A stretch of 39,322 bases of DNA, taken from contig JAITPM010000088.1 of assembly GCA_031289425.1 (NCBI GenBank), forward strand, positions 1-39,322, given 5' to 3'. The DNA comes from Fusobacteriaceae bacterium. Lineage in GTDB: Bacteria > Fusobacteriota > Fusobacteriia > Fusobacteriales > Fusobacteriaceae. The translations under genes and the position numbers were made by a program. The first letter of the stretch is position 1, and the number at the start of each line of letters is the position of its first letter. The notes under the pieces are model-generated. The model did no database searches and was not told the DNA's origin. It saw nothing but the letters and a program-made list of their open reading frames with translations. Shown one piece after another: positions 29,474 to 39,262 of this stretch.

Positions 29474-30781
29474 TTATATTGGTCCTAGAAAAAATGCGCC
29501 TGAAACTGCACCAACTATTATAGTTATCGTACATGCAATCCACAAAGGGATAAAGATATTTCTACAGTGTTGAGTAATCTCGAATCCACCTAATTCTGCG
29601 CAAAGATTCGCTGCTGCTGTCATTGGAGAACATTGAGAACCATGCAACATTACAAATGGTAATACACAAGCTATAGAAGAAAAACCAAAAGTTGCGCCTA
29701 TACCTATCAAAATAGGGAAGAAAGAGTAAAATAATTGATATGGAATAAATACCAATATTGGTACACTTAATAACCCGATTATAACATGAGCATATCTTGT
29801 CATAGATGAAGGAATCAAAGACATTATAGCAGTAATCATACCAGTTACCATACCGGAATCTTTCATAACTCCAACCATAACTCCTATTGCTAAGAAAATC
29901 AAGCATGGGTTTAACATAGTAGCTGCATATTTCTTAATTAAATCTTTTTGATCTTTAGCATTAGGATAATTGACAACCAAAGTAATATCAAAGAATAACA
30001 TGAATAAGAAATAAGTAGGAAGCTTGACAGTCATTAACGTAACAAGACAGCCTACAAAAATAAAGAAATTAACCCAGAACAATTTTGGACGTGCATATGG
30101 ACTAGAAGTAAAATCAAATTGTTTTGCTTCTAGGTTAGCATCTTCTGCTGATATTGTTCTGTTTTTATTTTGCTTGGATACAAAGACTCCTATTATGATA
30201 GCAAAAGCAAATGCAGTCAATGTTCCGGCTACTTGTAAAGGAATCAAATGACGCCACATGTCTACAGGGTTAGCATCTGCAAAAGTAGCTACCATGACTG
30301 CTACAGAACTCCATGGAAGAGCTGTCATAGGGCAAGCGGCCATAACGGTTAATACCAAAAGGTATTTTTTATCTATCCCTAATTTTTTATATAAAGGTAA
30401 TAATGCAGGAATAGTTATCAGATAAGTAGTATTGAATGAGCCATCCAAATGGGCAATAGTTGCTATGACAACTGTAGCTATAAGGATTACATATACATTT
30501 GAACCTGATATCTTGAGTATAGCATTTACGAGAATTTCAAACATGCATGTTTCCGATAATAAGCTAAAAAAGGCTACCGCAAATAAAATTAAAATAACTG
30601 CTGTAAAAGTAGAATTTATTCCTGATTGCACAAACCCTGATATTTTCTTTATATCAAAGCCGCCAAGCAGGGCAAAAAGTAATGGGATTGCAGAAAAAGC
30701 TGCTATTAAATTTACTCTGTTTGATAAAACCAAAATGGTAATTACAGCTAGCATTAAAAAACCAAGAATTGTTAAGTTCAT
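29474..30781 (-). CDS. CitMHS-type citrate/organic acid transporter
   Basis: About 435 residues with 10-12 membrane segments. It begins NLTILGFLMLAVITILVLSNRVN and contains AHLDGSFNTTYLITIPALLPLYKKLGI, TALPWSSVAVMVATFADAN and LHGSQCSPMTAAANLCAELGG. The pattern fits the CitMHS family of the ion transporter superfamily, whose studied members carry metal-citrate with protons. The real substrate may be another di- or tricarboxylate or amide. I moved the start to 30781, 5 bases after GGAGG (30787-30791); an ATG at 30793 overlaps that site. It is divergent from a sigma54 activator and has a sigma54 promoter upstream. Confidence 0.85.
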   Translation of the reverse strand: MNLTILGFLMLAVITILVLSNRVNLIAAFSAIPLLFALLGGFDIKKISGFVQSGINSTFTAVILILFAVAFFSLLSETCMFEILVNAILKISGSNVYVILIATVVIATIAHLDGSFNTTYLITIPALLPLYKKLGIDKKYLLVLTVMAACPMTALPWSSVAVMVATFADANPVDMWRHLIPLQVAGTLTAFAFAIIIGVFVSKQNKNRTISAEDANLEAKQFDFTSSPYARPKLFWVNFFIFVGCLVTLMTVKLPTYFLFMLFFDITLVVNYPNAKDQKDLIKKYAATMLNPCLIFLAIGVMVGVMKDSGMVTGMITAIMSLIPSSMTRYAHVIIGLLSVPILVFIPYQLFYSFFPILIGIGATFGFSSIACVLPFVMLHGSQCSPMTAAANLCAELGGFEITQHCRNIFIPLWIACTITIIVGAVSGAFFLGPI

Positions 30782-30898
30782 ATTTTCCTCCATATTTAGT
30801 TAATGTAGTAATTTTAAAATAATTTTTTTTAAAAAATTATTTTTCCAAAATATTTTTAAATAAATTTTAAACATGTCATCTCTTCATATTATATACTT

Positions 30899-31000: not shown

Positions 31001-31017
31001 TTAGAATGGAGATAATT

Positions 31018-32919
31018 ATGAGTTCACAAATATGTTATGTTACAATGGTTGAAGGTTTGGCAGATTTTGCAGGAGAATTATTTAAAAAAAATAAATATGA
31101 TATTGACGCCCACTACATAGATATAGACCAAACTCCTAGACAGGTGGGTAAATTTATCAAAGAAGGTGCAAAAGTCCTGATTGCACGTGGTGGAGTAGTT
31201 ACAATCATAAAGCAGTCTTTTTCTGTACCGATTATCAATCTTAAATATAATTTTCTTGAGTTTTTTGAGCCGATAAAAAAGGCCTATGAAATATCTGATA
31301 AAGTAGCTCTCATGGGATGGTACAATAGTATTGATAACTTTAATAAATATAAGGCTCTATTGAGTACGTCCCTTCATTATGTAGAATTGTCGCCTACTAC
31401 GGCTGCCGATTGTGAGGATTATATATATAGAGAAGTAAAAAAAGTCGTAGAAATGGGTATAAAAGTGGTCGTAGGTGGAGGAGGAGTTGTAAGAGCTGCA
31501 AAACGACTTAATATACCGTATGTTCATGTAGATATATCTGAGCAGGCATACTTGGATGCTGCTGATGAAGCATTGTATAACTTGTATATATATGAAGAAA
31601 ATCTTAGAAGGAATGAAATAATAACCGCAGTGCTCAATAATGTATTTGAGGGTGCGTTGACCATAGATTCAGGTGGATATATTACAAGTTGCAACAATAT
31701 AGCTCGTAGAATATTGAATCTGCCAAAACATGAAAACAATGAAAAAATACTATTATCTCAATACTTTCCACGTAAAGATACCATAGAAAATGCTATCAAT
31801 GGCAAAAAATTGGTAAATCAATTTTTTACTATAAATAATAATCAAGTAGTTTTGAATGCAGAACCATTATATCTTGATAAGCAGATAACGGGATCAATAA
31901 TAACCTTACAAGAGACAGATACGATATTAAATTTAGAAAAGAAAATATTAAAAAATGCAGTAGCATCAGGACATTATGCCAAATATTGCTTTGATGATAT
32001 TGTCGGTGGAAGTTATGCAATGTCTATGATAAAGGATAAAGCCCAAAAATATGCTGCATCCAACAGCCCTGTGCTGATATTGGGGGAATCTGGGACAGGA
32101 AAAGAGATATTTGCTCAGAGTATCCACAATGCCAGTACTAGAAAAAATAATCCTTTTGTCGCGATAAATTGTGCGGCATTACCTGAGAGTATCCTGGAAA
32201 GTGAATTGTTCGGATATGTAAAAGGAGCCTTTACCGGAGCCAGAAATGAGGGTAAAAAGGGAATATTTGAAATGGCTCATAAAGGTACTATTTTTTTGGA
32301 TGAAATAGGAGAATTTTCGCCGAAAGTACAAGCAAGATTGCTTCGTGTGCTCCAAGAAAAAGAAATTTCCAGAATAGGAGACGATAAAATTATTCCCGTA
32401 GATGTAAGAATAATAGCAGCAACTAACAAAGATTTATGGAAAGCCATGGAAGATGGCAGTTTTAGAGAAGATTTATATTATAGAATAAATGTATTAAATC
32501 TTACATTGCCACCGCTAAGAGAACGTAGGGAAGATATTATGGAAATGATAGAGAGGCTTACTATTCGTGCCGGATTTTCAAAAAAAACATTTGCTTTAGA
32601 GGCTATAGAGATAATATTGGATCAAAAATGGCGTGGAAATATAAGAGAATTAAATAATTTTATAGAAAGATTGGAAGTTATGAGTATAGCAGAAACTATT
32701 ACATTAAATGATGTATGCCAAATACTGGAATTGCCGTTTAAAGAAAAACTTGATTATAGAATAAGCAATGGTAATAGTATCCAAAAAGTAGACGGTAAAT
32801 ATATTTTACATATGTTAAAACAAAATTATGGAAATAAAAAGAAAACCGCTAAGGATTTAGGAATCAGTACAGCCACATTATGGAGACGTCTAAAGGAGAT
32901 TAAAGAAAAAATAAATTAA
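31018..32919 (+). CDS. PrpR-type sigma54-dependent transcriptional activator
   Basis: About 633 residues in the order: PrpR_N ligand-sensing domain (about 1-180, with ARGGVVTIIKQ and GGGGVVRAAKRL), a PAS-like domain (about 195-300), AAA+ sigma54-activating domain with Walker A GESGTGKE, the diagnostic GAFTGA loop, Walker B GTIFLDEIGEF and an arginine-finger region, and a Fis-type helix-turn-helix at the end (NKKKTAKDLGISTATLWRRLKEI). It is a complete activator. The ligand is unknown: PrpR itself senses 2-methylcitrate, but this N-terminal domain is used widely. Start at 31018 has GGAG 7 bases upstream (31008-31011). It stands between two sigma54 promoters, which it probably controls. Confidence 0.92.
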   Translation: MSSQICYVTMVEGLADFAGELFKKNKYDIDAHYIDIDQTPRQVGKFIKEGAKVLIARGGVVTIIKQSFSVPIINLKYNFLEFFEPIKKAYEISDKVALMGWYNSIDNFNKYKALLSTSLHYVELSPTTAADCEDYIYREVKKVVEMGIKVVVGGGGVVRAAKRLNIPYVHVDISEQAYLDAADEALYNLYIYEENLRRNEIITAVLNNVFEGALTIDSGGYITSCNNIARRILNLPKHENNEKILLSQYFPRKDTIENAINGKKLVNQFFTINNNQVVLNAEPLYLDKQITGSIITLQETDTILNLEKKILKNAVASGHYAKYCFDDIVGGSYAMSMIKDKAQKYAASNSPVLILGESGTGKEIFAQSIHNASTRKNNPFVAINCAALPESILESELFGYVKGAFTGARNEGKKGIFEMAHKGTIFLDEIGEFSPKVQARLLRVLQEKEISRIGDDKIIPVDVRIIAATNKDLWKAMEDGSFREDLYYRINVLNLTLPPLRERREDIMEMIERLTIRAGFSKKTFALEAIEIILDQKWRGNIRELNNFIERLEVMSIAETITLNDVCQILELPFKEKLDYRISNGNSIQKVDGKYILHMLKQNYGNKKKTAKDLGISTATLWRRLKEIKEKIN

Positions 32920-33030: not shown

Positions 33031-33864
33031 ATGACTGAAGAAAATAAAAAAAGGTTAGAGGCACTAAATCAAAAACTTATAAATTTTGTTGAACACCCCT
33101 GGATTTTGAAGCAATCTCCTTTTCATATTGTTGGAGATATATATTTTGTTGGAAATAGCTATGTATCATGTTTTTTACTTGATACAGAAAAGGGATTAAT
33201 ACTCATAGATGCAGCTTTCAAAGAGACTTGTTATCTACTCTTCGATAACATAAGAGCACTTGGGTATAACCCGGAAAAAATCAAATATTTATTGTTATCC
33301 CATGGTCATTTTGATCATTGTGGAGCTGCAAAATTGGTGCAGGAATATTCTGGATGCGAGATATATTTGGGAAAGAGAGATCATTTCTTTTTCACAGAAC
33401 GCCCGGATTTGATCCTTTTCGAAGACCGTGTACCACGATTTGAGATAAATAATTTTTATGACTATGATGGTGTAATGGATTTTGGAAATATTAAAATAAG
33501 ACCTATTCTGACTCCGGGACATACTCCGGGTACGACTACTTTTCTGATTGAAACTATACATAATGGAGAAAAAGTGACTTGTGCTATGCATGGTGGAATA
33601 GGTATCAATGGTCTTACAAGGGATGAATTGGAATCAAACGGATTACCTCTATCATTGCAACAGGATTTTTTGAATTCATTAGAATATCTAAAGACGCTTA
33701 AAGTGGATGTTGTGCTTGCTTCTCACTCACATCAATATAATATGATCGAGAGGTCGACAAAGGATGATGGAACAGGAAAAGCATTTTTTGATAACGAAAA
33801 CGGTTGGCAAAAAATGCTTGACCAATTTATGGAACTTATGAAAAAAATAATTTCAGAAAATTAA
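33031..33864 (+). CDS. MBL-fold metallohydrolase, subclass B3-like layout
   Basis: 277 residues, no export signal. Metal ligands: HGHFDH (H91, H93, D95, H96), the His of TPGHTPGTTT (H164) and a His of ASHSHQYN (H232 or H234). The GNSYVSCFLLDTEKGLILIDAAF start and the ligand set without a bridging Cys resemble the B3/THIN-B branch of the metallo-beta-lactamase superfamily. Most members of this superfamily are metabolic hydrolases. Because it lacks a signal peptide and is driven by a sigma54 promoter next to a carboxylate transporter, a catabolic hydrolase (amide, lactone or ester) is more likely than drug resistance. Substrate is unknown. AGGAGAACGCATT precedes the ATG. It ends at a strong terminator. 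Confidence 0.85.
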   Translation: MTEENKKRLEALNQKLINFVEHPWILKQSPFHIVGDIYFVGNSYVSCFLLDTEKGLILIDAAFKETCYLLFDNIRALGYNPEKIKYLLLSHGHFDHCGAAKLVQEYSGCEIYLGKRDHFFFTERPDLILFEDRVPRFEINNFYDYDGVMDFGNIKIRPILTPGHTPGTTTFLIETIHNGEKVTCAMHGGIGINGLTRDELESNGLPLSLQQDFLNSLEYLKTLKVDVVLASHSHQYNMIERSTKDDGTGKAFFDNENGWQKMLDQFMELMKKIISEN

Positions 33865-34632: not shown

Positions 34633-35547
34633 CTAATCTATTTTACCTAATAATTTAACAAGAACGGCTTTTTGTGCATGAATTCTATTTTCAGCCTCGT
34701 CAAATATTTCATCTGCATGTTCTTCAAAAACTTTATTTGTGATTTCCTCTTCTCTGTGAGCAGGAAGGCAATGTTGTACTATCGCATCTTTTTTGGCAAC
34801 AGATAGCACGTCATCATTGATTTGATATCCTTTGAAGATATCACGACGGTTTTTAGATTCTTCTTCTTGTCCCATAGAAGCCCATACATCTGTAATCAGC
34901 ACATCTGCATTTTTGGCAGCAGCAAAGACATCCTCAGTCATAGTGAATAATTCACCATATGATTTTAGCTCATTTACTATATCATCCTTTATTTGATATT
35001 GCTTTGGAGCTGCTAAAACAAATTTAATGCCTAATTTTACGCAACCATATGCCAATGAATTAGCCATGTTGTATCCATCCCCTATAAAGCATACTTTAAG
35101 TCCCTTGAAAGACCCTTTATATTCTCTGATGGTCATTAGATCAGCCAATACTTGGCAAGGGTGGGCATAATCTGTAAGACCGTTAATAATAGGGATACTT
35201 CCATAAGTTACCAAATCTTCCAAATCTTTTTGCGCATAAGTACGTATCATTATGCCATCCAAATATCTAGATAGAACTCTAGCAGTATCTTTAATAGGTT
35301 CACCTCTTCCCATCTGTAGATCAGATGCGCTTAATACTATAGCATTTCCGCCTAGTTCACCCATTCCTACTTCAAAAGATATTCTGGTTCTTGTAGAAGC
35401 TTTCTGGAAAATCATTCCCAAAGTTTTACCGAGTAAATATTGATGTGGAATTCCATGCTTTTTTTCATATTTCAATTGATCGGCCAAGTTTAATATATCT
35501 ATTATTTCATTTTCTGATAGATCAGCTATCTTTAATAAGTGTTTCAT
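34633..35547 (-). CDS. argF: Ornithine carbamoyltransferase
   Basis: 304 residues. Carbamoyl-phosphate binding STRTR in KASTRTRISFEVGM, HPCQ in DYAHPCQVLADL, ornithine-side DVWASMGQE and the catalytic HCLPAHREEE loop. The enzyme makes citrulline. The HCLP form and its place after argD favour the anabolic ArgF over catabolic ArcB or putrescine-type enzymes. The ATG overlaps the argD stop (ATGA at 35544-35547), with GGAGGT about 10 bases upstream, so the two are translationally coupled. argG and argH are not present here. Confidence 0.94.
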   Translation of the reverse strand: MKHLLKIADLSENEIIDILNLADQLKYEKKHGIPHQYLLGKTLGMIFQKASTRTRISFEVGMGELGGNAIVLSASDLQMGRGEPIKDTARVLSRYLDGIMIRTYAQKDLEDLVTYGSIPIINGLTDYAHPCQVLADLMTIREYKGSFKGLKVCFIGDGYNMANSLAYGCVKLGIKFVLAAPKQYQIKDDIVNELKSYGELFTMTEDVFAAAKNADVLITDVWASMGQEEESKNRRDIFKGYQINDDVLSVAKKDAIVQHCLPAHREEEITNKVFEEHADEIFDEAENRIHAQKAVLVKLLGKID

Positions 35548-36716
35548 TTATCTATTACCTCCTTTAATATGTTTAATCCGATTTCTAATGTTTTTCTATC
35601 AATGTTAAGAGGTGGTAATAGTCTAATTTTTTCTTTTGCAGTCAGAACAAGTAATCTTTTATTTATACATTCTTTTAGAACTTCTTTTGCATCTTTTTTC
35701 TTGAGTTCTATTCCAATCATGAGTCCCATTCCGGTTATATCTTTGACATTTTTACAATCACCCAAAACACTATAGATAATCTTTTCTTTTTCTTTTACTT
35801 CTTTTAAAAAATTCTCATCCAATCTGGAAAAAATACTTAATGCACCAGCAGCAGCAATAGGATTACCACCGAATGTACTTCCGTGAGCTCCATAATCAAA
35901 GGTGTTTTTGCATTTTTCACCAATTATTACGGCTCCAAATGGAAGACCGCCGGCAAGACCTTTAGCTGTAGTCACTATATCCGGTTTTATACCATAGGCC
36001 ATATACGAATATAGATAACCTGTTCTTCCATTTCCTGTTTGTACTTCATCTACAATGAGCAAAATATCATTTTTTTCACAGATTTCTGCTATTTCTTTTA
36101 TATATTTCGTATCAAGAGGAACTACCCCTCCTTCTCCCTGCACTAGTTCTATCATTATGGCACAAGTTTTTTTAGATAATTGTTTTTTCAAATCTTCTGT
36201 ATCATTGGGTTTTGCGTATTTAAACCCGTCTAAAAAAGGTCCAAAATATTTATGGAAAGAGTCTTGACCTGTGGCTGTTAGAGTTGCGATAGTACGGCCA
36301 TGAAAACTATTTACGAGAGTAATAATTTCGAATCTCTTGTCACCATATTTATCAAAGGAGTATTTTCTAGCACATTTTATTGCTCCTTCATTTGCCTCAG
36401 CTCCACTGTTTGCAAAAAAAACTTTGTCCATCTCAACTTTTTCACAGATCATTTTGGCCAATTTTGTCTGTGGTAAGGTATAATATAAATTTGATATGTG
36501 AGATAATGTTTTGACTTGTCGGATGACAGCACTTTGCCATTTTTTATCACAGGCCCCGAATGAATTAACTCCTATTCCACTTGTAAAATCAATATATTCA
36601 TTTCCATCTGTATCATATAAAAGTGATCCGTTTCCCTTTTCAATTGCTACATCAAATCTTGCATATGTGTTTGCAATGTTGCTATTGTCTAATTTTTTTA
36701 CGAATTCAAACTTCAT
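35544..36716 (-). CDS. argD: Acetylornithine aminotransferase
   Basis: 390 residues, a class III PLP aminotransferase. Motifs: YIDFTSGIGVNSFGACD, FANSGAEANEGAIKCARKY, FHGRTIATLTATGQ, VDEVQTGNGRTG and the PLP lysine in TTAKGLAGGLPFGA. It converts N-acetylglutamate semialdehyde to N-acetylornithine, fitting its place between argB and argF. AAGGGGGATAATA precedes the ATG. The 136-base gap to argB is larger than the others in this operon. It holds no terminator, only small AT-rich inverted repeats. Confidence 0.93.
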   Translation of the reverse strand: MKFEFVKKLDNSNIANTYARFDVAIEKGNGSLLYDTDGNEYIDFTSGIGVNSFGACDKKWQSAVIRQVKTLSHISNLYYTLPQTKLAKMICEKVEMDKVFFANSGAEANEGAIKCARKYSFDKYGDKRFEIITLVNSFHGRTIATLTATGQDSFHKYFGPFLDGFKYAKPNDTEDLKKQLSKKTCAIMIELVQGEGGVVPLDTKYIKEIAEICEKNDILLIVDEVQTGNGRTGYLYSYMAYGIKPDIVTTAKGLAGGLPFGAVIIGEKCKNTFDYGAHGSTFGGNPIAAAGALSIFSRLDENFLKEVKEKEKIIYSVLGDCKNVKDITGMGLMIGIELKKKDAKEVLKECINKRLLVLTAKEKIRLLPPLNIDRKTLEIGLNILKEVIDK

Positions 36717-36852: not shown

Positions 36853-37707
36853 TTACACATTCACAAACATGGTACCGATACCACTATCACTCAGAACCTC
36901 AATCAATATAGCATGAGGAATTCTTCCGTCTATTATGAATGCTCTATCTACACCTTGTCTTACAGCATCTACGCAACAATTTATTTTCGGAATCATACCA
37001 CCACTTATTATTCCTTCTTTTATTAGAGCTTTTACATCTGATATGCGCACATAAGGAATAAGAGTGCTTTCATCATCTTTGTCTTTGAGCAATCCTTTTA
37101 CATCAGTCATTGCAATTAGGCTTTTTGCCTTTAGCGCACCAGCAATAGCACTAGCAGCAGTATCAGCATTTATATTATAAACATTGGCATTATCATCACA
37201 TGCTATGGTGGAAATCACAGGGATGTAACCTAAAGCTAAAGCATCCAATATAATTTTTGTATTTATATTAGTAATATCCCCTACTTGACCATATTTTTCT
37301 TCTAGTTTTTGGGCTATCAACATATGACCATCTATTCCTGATAGACCTATTGCTTTTCCTCCATTGGATTCTAATATATTGACAAGATCTTTGTTTGCTT
37401 TTCCGGCCAATATCATTTGGACTATATCCATAGTCTCATCATCAGTGACACGAAGCCCATCAATAAATACAGATTCTTTTCCGATTTTTTTTAACATTTG
37501 GGAGATTTCCGGACCTCCTCCATGGACCAAGACAACCTTTATCCCGATAGTGGTAAGTAGAATCAAATCTTTCATTACGGATTGCTTTAGTTCATTATTT
37601 AACATTGCATTCCCACCGTATTTTACGACAATAATTTCGTTTATATATTTTTTGATATAAGGTAGAGCTTCTATTAATATTTCTGCTTTTTCGTTGTCAT
37701 TTTTCAT
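36853..37707 (-). CDS. argB: Acetylglutamate kinase
   Basis: 284 residues. EIIVVKYGGNAM (phosphate-binding Lys), VLVHGGGPEISQMLKKIG, GKANKDLVNILESNGGKAIGLSG, INADTAASAIAGALKAKSLIAMTDVKGLL and GGMIPKINCCVDAV. It phosphorylates N-acetylglutamate, usually the committed and, in some species, arginine-inhibited step. I cannot judge arginine sensitivity by eye, although the N-terminal helix (EKAEILIEALPYIKKY) typical of hexameric, inhibitable kinases is present. GGAGG lies 9 bases before the ATG. It follows argC by about 35 bases. Confidence 0.94.
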   Translation of the reverse strand: MKNDNEKAEILIEALPYIKKYINEIIVVKYGGNAMLNNELKQSVMKDLILLTTIGIKVVLVHGGGPEISQMLKKIGKESVFIDGLRVTDDETMDIVQMILAGKANKDLVNILESNGGKAIGLSGIDGHMLIAQKLEEKYGQVGDITNINTKIILDALALGYIPVISTIACDDNANVYNINADTAASAIAGALKAKSLIAMTDVKGLLKDKDDESTLIPYVRISDVKALIKEGIISGGMIPKINCCVDAVRQGVDRAFIIDGRIPHAILIEVLSDSGIGTMFVNV

Positions 37708-37741: not shown

Positions 37742-38665
37742 TTATAAATCTAAACCTTTTGTTGATGAAAGCCCCAGAGCTATATTCATACACTCTATAG
37801 CGGCTCCACTGGCGCCTTTACCCAAATTATCAAATTGAGAATGGATAGTGATTCTATCATCGTTACCGCACACAAAAATTTTCATATAATCTTTTTTAGC
37901 CAAAATATTCGAGCTAAGCATTGTAGGTATATCCGGCAAATCAATTACTTTTATAAAATCTTGGTCTTTATAAAAATTTTTATAGATTTCATGGATATCC
38001 TTTAAAGAAATATTTTTTTTATTAATTATTCCCACAGTTACAAGCATTCCAGCATAATATGGAGCTACTATGGGTAGGAAAATAGGATCAGTTTCTAAGT
38101 TACAATGTTTTTTAATTTCCGGTAAATGCTTGTGTTTTTGGTTGAGACCATAAACCCGTGGAGCATCTAATTCTATAGTATGTGGGTTTTCATATTCAGC
38201 AATCATTTTTTTCCCACCACCAGAATATCCGGTTAGAGATGTGATTGTAAAGGGATAATTTTTTTCTACTATGTTATTGGATATAAGAGGAGCTATTATT
38301 GCAATGGAGCCACTGGCATGACAACCGGGAACACTTATTTTATTAAAGTTTTTAACTTTTTCTAAGTAATTTTTTGATAATTCGGGTAATCCATATGCCC
38401 AATCATCGTCGCATCTGAAAGCGGTAGAGGCATCAATAATTTTTGCTTTTGTGCCATTGGTAAGCTCAACGATTTCTTTTGAGGCATCATCAGGTAAGCA
38501 CAAGAAAGTTATATCGGATTCATTAATTTTTTTTACTCTTTCATTTTTATCTTTTCTAAGATCATCGCTTATTTCTAAAACGGTGATATCGTCCCGACTG
38601 CCAAAACGGTCAAGGATTCTAAGCCCAGTCGTTCCTTCTTTTCCATCAATAAAAACTTTAAACAT
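37742..38665 (-). CDS. argC: N-acetyl-gamma-glutamyl-phosphate reductase, short (type 2) form
   Basis: 307 residues. It begins FKVFIDGKEGTTGLRILDRF, has the catalytic Cys in VPGCHASG and a conserved HKHLPEI. The start 'VFIDG-x-GTTG' and the length of about 310 fit the less common type 2 ArgC, rather than the 340-residue form of Bacillus or E. coli. It reduces N-acetylglutamyl phosphate using NADPH. AGGAGG lies 7 bases before the ATG. It is the first gene of the operon, 154 bases after a small Arg-rich leader ORF and 35-70 bases after a hairpin with a T-rich tail. argJ or argA is absent from the window. Confidence 0.92.
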   Translation of the reverse strand: MFKVFIDGKEGTTGLRILDRFGSRDDITVLEISDDLRKDKNERVKKINESDITFLCLPDDASKEIVELTNGTKAKIIDASTAFRCDDDWAYGLPELSKNYLEKVKNFNKISVPGCHASGSIAIIAPLISNNIVEKNYPFTITSLTGYSGGGKKMIAEYENPHTIELDAPRVYGLNQKHKHLPEIKKHCNLETDPIFLPIVAPYYAGMLVTVGIINKKNISLKDIHEIYKNFYKDQDFIKVIDLPDIPTMLSSNILAKKDYMKIFVCGNDDRITIHSQFDNLGKGASGAAIECMNIALGLSSTKGLDL

Positions 38666-38689
38666 TTTAACCTCCTAAAATTTTGAATT

Positions 38690-38736
38690 TTATAAAATAA
38701 AAATCAGTGGGCATCTTTTTACAATGTACACTGACT
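38690..38736 (-). terminator. Candidate attenuator terminator before argC
   Basis: On the minus strand AGTCAGTG (38729-38736) pairs with CACTGATT (38702-38709), 8 pairs including one G-U, followed by TTTTTATTTTA. The loop is large (19 bases), so the stem is only moderate. It lies between the leader ORF and the argC ribosome-binding site. Confidence 0.45.
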
Positions 38737-38746
38737 GCATAACAAT

Positions 38747-38819
38747 ATATAATTTAATGAAAAAAATCATCAAAAGAACTAATAGCACATGAAAAAAGAA
38801 AGGAATTATTAAATTATAT
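38747..38819 (-). promoter_or_regulatory. Long-range 12-base-pair pairing in the arg leader RNA
   Basis: A perfect 12-base inverted repeat: 38808-38819 (directly at the leader ORF's stop codon) with 38747-38758, separated by 49 bases. A competing AT hairpin (38804-38810 with 38821-38827) uses the last leader codons and is followed by CCTTTCTTTTTT. The two structures exclude each other, as expected of an attenuator. Which one is anti-terminating is not settled. Confidence 0.45.
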
Positions 38820-38863
38820 CAATAATTGTATTTCCTCATCCTCAATCTTGCTAAAAATTGCAT
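38819..38863 (-). CDS. Arginine-rich leader peptide of the arg operon
   Basis: A 14-codon ORF reading MQFLARLRMRKYNY, with AGGAGGAA at 38868-38875, one of the best ribosome-binding sites in the window. Three of its residues are Arg (AGA, AGG, AGG at codons 6, 8 and 10), just before the region that forms competing RNA structures. It lies between a consensus promoter and argC. By analogy with classical amino-acid attenuation (his, trp, leu leaders), ribosome stalling at the Arg codons when charged arginyl-tRNA is scarce would change RNA folding and let transcription go on into argC. A translational arginine-sensing peptide is an alternative. The peptide is too short for homology; the evidence is site, codons, position and flanking structures. 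Confidence 0.7.
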   Translation of the reverse strand: MQFLARLRMRKYNY

Positions 38864-38916
38864 TTAATTCCTCCTGAAGTTATGTGTTAAAAATTAATTA
38901 TATTTTAATTTCCATG

Positions 38917-38944
38917 ATTATATCATATGAGGGAAAAATGTCAA
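38917..38944 (-). promoter_or_regulatory. Consensus promoter of the arg operon
   Basis: On the minus strand TTGACA (38939-38944), 16 bases, TATAAT (38917-38922), with TGA before it (extended -10): both hexamers perfect. A near-palindrome ATTAA-N7-TTAAT lies just downstream and could be a repressor site, but it does not clearly match an ARG box. The leader RNA to argC is about 245 bases. Confidence 0.8.
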
Positions 38945-39262
38945 CATTTTTTTTATAGATTTTAGATATTTTTTAAAAAAATAGTAAATTTTATTTCGAT
39001 AAGTGAGAAGTGCAATTTATGGAAATAGAGTTTATGGAAAAATAAAAAAAAATTTTCAAAAAAAGATAGACAAAATTAAATATATGTTATATACTCAAAT
39101 AAATTTGCCATTAGCAACACATAAAATATATCTAAATATAACATATAGAATTTTTATTGATTTAATCTATTGTGTCAATGATGAATGTCAGACATATTTA
39201 TATATAAATGATAATGGTATTGTTCATAAAATAATTTTATTTTTAATAATTGGAGGAATCTC
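38945..39262 (+). other. Gene-free AT-rich stretch
   Basis: About 320 bases between the arg promoter and the next gene on the plus strand. I see no convincing coding frame (a GTG-started frame of 91 codons has no ribosome-binding site), no structured RNA and no clear promoter hexamer pair, although several TATAAA-like words occur. It should contain the promoter of the following gene. Confidence 0.5.

Follow-up and report, generated by a model that had tools for sequence, protein, structure and literature searches.

Textbooks present arginine biosynthesis as the model of regulation through a repressor that binds DNA; arginine T-boxes are the RNA alternative. Control of arginine genes by T-boxes has been described elsewhere (PMC1262725). 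Leaders that carry arginine codons are known for non-biosynthetic genes: in the Salmonella speF leader the ribosome pauses at the arginine codons of orf34 when arginine is low (PMC6386406), and in S. aureus rare AGA/AGG codons in rbfL, a small upstream ORF, sense the arginine supply (PMC13009471). For carA of Pseudomonas aeruginosa there is a leader peptide and attenuation has been proposed; the paper that mentions it attributes it to pyrimidines, and ArgR acts for arginine (PMC4997734). The main text of a broad attenuator survey (PMC2965389) mentions neither arginine nor Fusobacteria, and searches limited to open-access papers turned up no report of leader-peptide attenuation in Fusobacteria or for arginine biosynthesis genes. 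A preliminary description of the locus studied here stated that no arginine leader attenuator is well established in bacteria; this agrees with those searches as regards arginine biosynthesis operons and is too wide for arginine-codon leaders in general, given speF orf34 and rbfL.

The window analysed is the whole stretch of 39,322 nucleotides. Its reverse strand carries argC, encoding N-acetyl-gamma-glutamyl-phosphate reductase (37742..38665; TIGR01851), followed by argB, acetylglutamate kinase (36853..37707; TIGR00761), argD, of the acetylornithine aminotransferase family (35544..36716; TIGR00707), and argF, ornithine carbamoyltransferase (34633..35547; TIGR00658). The ArgC is of type 2, the less common ArgC type; its gene starts at 38665, behind a Shine-Dalgarno sequence AGGAGG at 38671..38676. 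Nearby are genes for a sigma-54-dependent activator (31006-32919, forward strand; nearest models PrdR/PrpR, score below cut-off), a citrate-symporter-like transporter (29474-30793, reverse strand) and an MBL-fold protein (33031-33864, forward strand).

The leader region lies upstream of argC on the same reverse strand. The -35 box TTGACA (38939..38944) and the -10 box TATAAT (38917..38922), separated by 16 nt, match the consensus at 12 of 12 positions, so the promoter is as perfect as the preliminary description had claimed. About 47 nt downstream of the predicted transcription start begins the ATG of a 14-codon leader ORF, MQFLARLRMRKYNY (38819..38863 including the stop codon), which is preceded by a Shine-Dalgarno AGGAGG at 38870..38875. 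Arginine occupies codons 6 (AGA, 38848-38846), 8 (AGG, 38842-38840) and 10 (AGG, 38836-38834), and this cluster at 38834..38848 holds the proposed control codons; a well-initiated ORF with three arginine codons in five is indeed present. Further downstream, the hairpin AGUCAGUG...CACUGAUU (38702..38736, regions 3:4) runs into a T-rich tail, TTTTATTTT (38694..38702), and together they end 29 nt upstream of the argC start. The hairpin has a folding energy of -11.4 kcal/mol (z -3.2) that was matched by none of 200 dinucleotide shuffles, and the earlier claim of a second hairpin with a T tail just before argC is thereby confirmed. A simple terminator scan of the window did not pick it up, since its stem is not continuous. 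Taken whole, the leader has a better fold than 199 of 200 shuffles.

ArgR was searched for with PF01316. The window genome (97.8% complete) gave no match; the same search was positive in 9 of 14 control genomes. Among 98 Fusobacteriota genomes a single one exceeds the ArgR cut-off, and it lies outside the order; two further genomes, one of them G002 from the window genus, have weak matches below the cut-off. In the genome above the cut-off, a class-level relative, two PF01316 matches fall in one 326-aa frame (G097:C2:618-1247), which is perhaps a fused or duplicated ArgR. A T-box or another known RNA element was considered and rejected, as the window has no Rfam match and 38600-39100 has none even at E<=1. 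The lineage makes arginine without ArgR, and therefore it needs another control. We propose, with a probability of about 0.77, that a ribosome-mediated transcription attenuator of the trp/his type senses charged tRNA-Arg and controls argCBDF in place of ArgR.

Conservation inside the genus was assessed from three sequences, the window, G001 and G002, where the ArgC proteins of the two relatives are 73 and 71% identical to that of the window. Before argC both relatives show the window layout, with TTGACA-17-TATAAT, a Shine-Dalgarno sequence and a leader ORF. Their leaders, MQSKARQRIRTYF... and MQSMARQRIRTYF..., compared with MQFLARLRMRKY in the window, define the genus pattern MQxxARxRxRxY, in which M1, Q2, A5, R6, R8, R10 and Y12 are invariant. 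The idea that relatives would keep the ORF and its arginine codons is borne out: all three positions are retained with interchange of AGA and AGG, while codons 3, 4, 7, 9 and 11 drift. The stem is kept as well. Shortly upstream of argC, G001 and G002 have a homologous hairpin with a terminal CTGATTTTTATTT, which is common to all three genus members, and CAGUG:CACUG in the window terminator becomes CAGCG:CGCUG in G002, a compensatory change from U-A to C-G. The terminator of G002 has a z of -4.6; that of G001 is unexceptional alone, with 27 of 200 shuffles as good. A 36-nt leader pattern run over the 98 genomes hits the argC leaders of all three members and, apart from them, a single unrelated site; its reversed control returns nothing.

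Further matches to an SD-RxRxR pattern in the genus were rejected as leader copies: three were examined, and these either begin or sit inside longer genes or, in the case of L189, are not followed by a gene; in the remaining ones the matched letters are unlike leader ORFs. Scans found no arginine-rich leader upstream of argG in the window genome.

Most other argC-bearing Fusobacteriales have an ArgC of type 1, with 28-37% identity across part of the protein. Arginine-rich leader ORFs with a Shine-Dalgarno start, together with terminators, precede most of these type-1 argC genes, both in the Leptotrichiaceae (our name for family f4, inferred from group structure) and in many Fusobacteriaceae (f1, the family of the window). 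The leader peptides include MKMIRRIRDNKF..., MKLVRRIRERK... and MIKFIRRIRERN... in the former, and MLFRIRRMRRNKK..., MMFRISRTRRQ..., MLLRNFRIM..., MRRYRRIRSKYN..., MLRKRFRRSN... and MMIKFLKRTSYTR... in the latter. With ArgR absent and such leaders before argC in most argC-bearing Fusobacteriales, the layout of ribosome-stalling attenuation noted in the preliminary description gains support. Arginine leaders also stand ahead of operons that join a binding protein to argG and of ABC-type-argHGC operons (MTMRRILRTQTR..., MLLTVLRKRNSQRF..., MLLVVNIRSRRL..., MRNLRNLRKRKK...). The binding protein heading the argG operons has its best family match, below the curated cut-off, to lysine/arginine/ornithine-binding proteins. 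In some operons (G013, G024, G036) two arginine-rich ORFs stand in tandem.

Several features of these loci can be added. Tandem leaders ahead of one argC are seen in L026, L170 (from G036) and L025; in L170 they are MLIRRSRMRRKES... at -525 and MLRKRFRRSNL... at -191 upstream of argC. In L026 and L170 a hairpin and T-run follow each ORF, a possible double attenuator. The argG genes of genus group g21 (L112, L115, L118, L125) have a short ORF with a Shine-Dalgarno sequence upstream (MRNNFRIM..., MKNFFRMTRINKT) with one to three arginine codons, and a terminator, CAGTCAATGG...CCATTGATTTTTATT, that closely resembles that of the window. Many relatives, among them L007, L010, L157, L004 and L163, have a second hairpin with a T-run, for example AGGCCTAAAAAAATAGGCTTTTTTT, past the leader terminator and before argC. 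One locus that holds an argG operon with an arginine leader also contains a lysine riboswitch (L127:579-753, reverse strand, 119 bits).

Within one family, ArgC is of type 2 in the window genus and of type 1 elsewhere (L004-L028), and an arginine leader precedes both. Judged from the sequences, the enzyme may have been replaced while the control layout was kept or re-evolved. Beyond Fusobacteria, candidate leaders of type-2 argC genes (Acidaminococcus, Clostridia, Burkholderiales) were rejected: the flagged ORFs use TTG as start codon and fall within upstream coding sequence or at its edge.

Beyond the window genus, the search for leaders relied in part on ORFs being arginine-rich; the comparison with a null and a covariance search are less exposed to this choice. 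For the former the criteria were fixed: an ATG, a Shine-Dalgarno sequence, 6-45 codons and at least 3 arginines in eight. By these criteria leaders occur at 10 of 21 argC- or argG-first genes versus 6 of 75 others, where the six are one more argC (L025) and five binding-protein genes heading argG operons. After hand sorting, a leader is present at 11 of 14 argC-first genes versus 0 of 69 non-arginine genes of the same loci (Fisher p 2e-11). Two of the argC misses have arginine-bearing leaders that fail a threshold (L004 with 50 codons, L012 with two arginines in eight), and in the third, L023, argC does not come first. Where a gap lies upstream of argG, such a leader is mostly absent.

The covariance model was built from 17 Leptotrichiaceae leaders and searched against the 98 whole genomes. 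It gives 18 matches at E<=0.05, one per genome and all immediately upstream of argC. Of these, 17 are the training set; the 18th comes from a genome of another family outside the training (G071, E 3e-4). Three genomes of the same genus in f4 that are without type-1 argC (G043, G046, G049) show no match. Across the 98 genomes the model does not reach the window genus, and the link between the window and the Leptotrichiaceae therefore rests on layout and arginine codons, not on sequence homology.

These comparisons bear on the simplest alternative, that a short ORF arose by chance in a purine-rich, AT-rich leader, that the hairpin terminates transcription in the ordinary way or constitutively, and that argCBDF is under some repressor. 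Short ORFs are common in AT-rich regions such as this one, and the RNA switch in the window itself, discussed below, is not significant. Against it stand the conservation of the leader and of both promoter boxes in two relatives, recurrence with the other argC type, the control genes that all lack a leader and the covariance matches specific to argC, and we consider chance very improbable.

The choice of codons points to the attenuator proposed above. Counting one leader per genus group, all 57 arginine codons are AGA or AGG. AGG accounts for 36 of the 57 (63%), as against 34 of 175 in long ORFs from these loci (p 3e-9), and AGG is the rarer codon, with 7 of the 82 arginine codons in the window. 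Arginine triplets are distributed 57:1:1 over frames 0, +1 and +2, a ratio that is partly circular as the leaders were chosen for arginine. A nascent-peptide sensor, in which the leader peptide, bound to arginine within the tunnel, halts its ribosome at high arginine, as in fungal AAP and the ornithine-sensing SpeFL, so promoting termination or blocking argC, would not need arginine codons that are all AGR and enriched in AGG. Such a sensor would fit the retention of M1, Q2, A5 and Y12, residues other than arginine, within the genus, and of RRIR in most Leptotrichiaceae. However, across genera the peptides range from 13 to 50 aa and share neither a sequence nor a C-terminus besides the arginine cluster, and nucleotide conservation falls on the positions paired with region 2. 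It is an improbable reading, though one less so than chance.

For the proposed attenuator the pairing of the leader RNA is central. Region 1, the strand across the arginine codons (38831..38848, reverse strand), is predicted to pair with a pyrimidine-rich strand downstream, region 2, AUUCCUUUCUUUUUUCA (38790..38806, reverse strand). In the preliminary description CCTTTCTTTTTT was taken as the tail of a first terminator; the strand instead pairs back onto arginine codons 8-10. The same 1:2 pairing is formed by AAAGGAUAAG:CUUAUCUUUU, with a bulge, in G001 and G002, by GAUAAGGG:CCCUUGUC or CCUUUAUC in the Leptotrichiaceae and by CAGGAUAA:UUAUUCUG in g8. Compared with spacer shuffles its combined p is 1.5e-6, taking one median per genus group; individual values are 0.17 for the window, 0.007 for G001 and 0.036 for G002. 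When the 17 Leptotrichiaceae leaders are aligned the helix is paired in 100% of cells and varies on the downstream side only, as expected if the codons fix the other side. The terminator of this family co-varies: at four pairs both partners have changed, with 12 two-sided cells in all, and 0 of 500 shuffles reach this.

To model the switch we placed a ribosome on the leader and asked whether the 5' arm of the terminator is pre-empted before the 3' arm is made. This readout was used because equilibrium probability does not discriminate: at equilibrium the terminator is favoured in nearly every case. With the ribosome on the arginine codons the 5' arm is captured by upstream RNA at 0.5-0.85 in most Leptotrichiaceae and in g8; with the ribosome at the stop codon or absent, capture is mostly below 0.3, and up to 0.6 in g21. 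In g14 the modelled switch is weaker and partial. Spacer shuffles seldom switch (1 of 100 for L010 and 0 of 100 for each of L015, L163 and L172), while for L007, L159 and L160 the switch is not distinct from shuffles; taking one median per group, the p values combine to 4e-4. These folds support a trp-type 1:2 / 2:3 / 3:4 switch in most Leptotrichiaceae and some Fusobacteriaceae genera. In the three members of the window genus there is no significant switch, as shuffles do as well in 36 of 100 cases for the window, 32 of 100 for G001 and 53 of 100 for G002. The mutually exclusive hairpins of the preliminary description are thus supported by the folds of most Leptotrichiaceae and some Fusobacteriaceae genera and not by those of the window genus. 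Here the terminator and the predicted 1:2 pairing are conserved, and the 2:3 antiterminator is not demonstrable from three divergent sequences.

The unclear antiterminator in the window genus would also fit a leader that responds to arginine at another step, such as argC translation, Rho access or mRNA stability, with the hairpin of little weight. There are precedents in S. aureus rbfL, which works by occlusion of the ribosome binding site (PMC13009471), and in Salmonella speF (PMC6386406), and the fold of the whole leader allows contact between its 5' part and the argC Shine-Dalgarno sequence. Yet in the genus, as in the other leaders examined, the leader ORF is followed by a hairpin with a T-tail before the first gene, this hairpin co-varies in the Leptotrichiaceae, and the leader stop codon is about 140 nt from the argC ribosome binding site, which makes simple occlusion as in rbfL inapplicable. 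We regard control at another step as unlikely, although it is the strongest of the three alternatives.

Under the attenuator model, transcription would start near 38910 and a ribosome would translate the 14-codon leader. With ample Arg-tRNA it would clear the AGA/AGG codons and be released, the arginine-codon strand would pair with region 2, and the hairpin at 38736-38702 with its T-tail would halt RNA polymerase upstream of argC. When arginine is scarce the ribosome would stall at codons 6-10 and mask region 1; region 2 would then be available to pair with the terminator's 5' arm, and transcription could enter argC. The position of the leader stop codon, about 13 nt upstream of region 2, counts against this mechanism. 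The layout recurs across Fusobacteria without ArgR, and therefore these bacteria probably gauge arginine by the speed of the ribosome on arginine codons.

We also lean, with less confidence than for the window operon, towards a wider reading. The ArgR-less Fusobacteriales may run their whole arginine regulon by attenuation at AGG-codon leaders, covering argC of either type, argG with the arginine-type binding protein, ABC-argHGC and some tandem leaders. This would be the first phylum-scale leader system for arginine biosynthesis in bacteria, one in which the leader outlives replacement of the enzyme. If true, arginine joins the amino acids for which the ribosome itself serves as the sensor of the biosynthetic operon, and Fusobacterial arginine control without ArgR is explained. 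Annotators would gain a simple signature and a covariance model for finding arginine leaders.

In general the locus resembles the attenuators of trp, his, ilv, leu, thr and phe: a short ORF with a Shine-Dalgarno sequence, a cluster of control codons and an intrinsic terminator before the first biosynthetic gene. In the Leptotrichiaceae the likeness extends to the alternative 1:2, 2:3 and 3:4 pairings predicted there. It differs from the classical cases in that the control amino acid is arginine, and in the window genus 2:3 is only putative. Arginine T-boxes and ArgR/AhrC likewise make arg genes respond to arginine; however, the window has no T-box by Rfam and the genome no ArgR gene. The Salmonella orf34 shares arginine codons in a leader ORF, but it acts on ornithine decarboxylase via Rho, unfolding of a ribosome binding site and RNase G, and not on arginine biosynthesis genes behind an intrinsic terminator. 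In rbfL, occlusion of the ribosome binding site blocks translation of a biofilm regulator, and arginine shortage lowers expression. The carA leader of P. aeruginosa is alike in placing a leader peptide ahead of an arginine/pyrimidine gene. In contrast to fungal AAP there is no conserved arrest peptide here beyond arginine, and only the arginine cluster is common across genera. On the best reading the mechanism itself is known, and what would be new, as far as the open-access papers searched go, is its application to an arginine operon and its occurrence in Fusobacteria.
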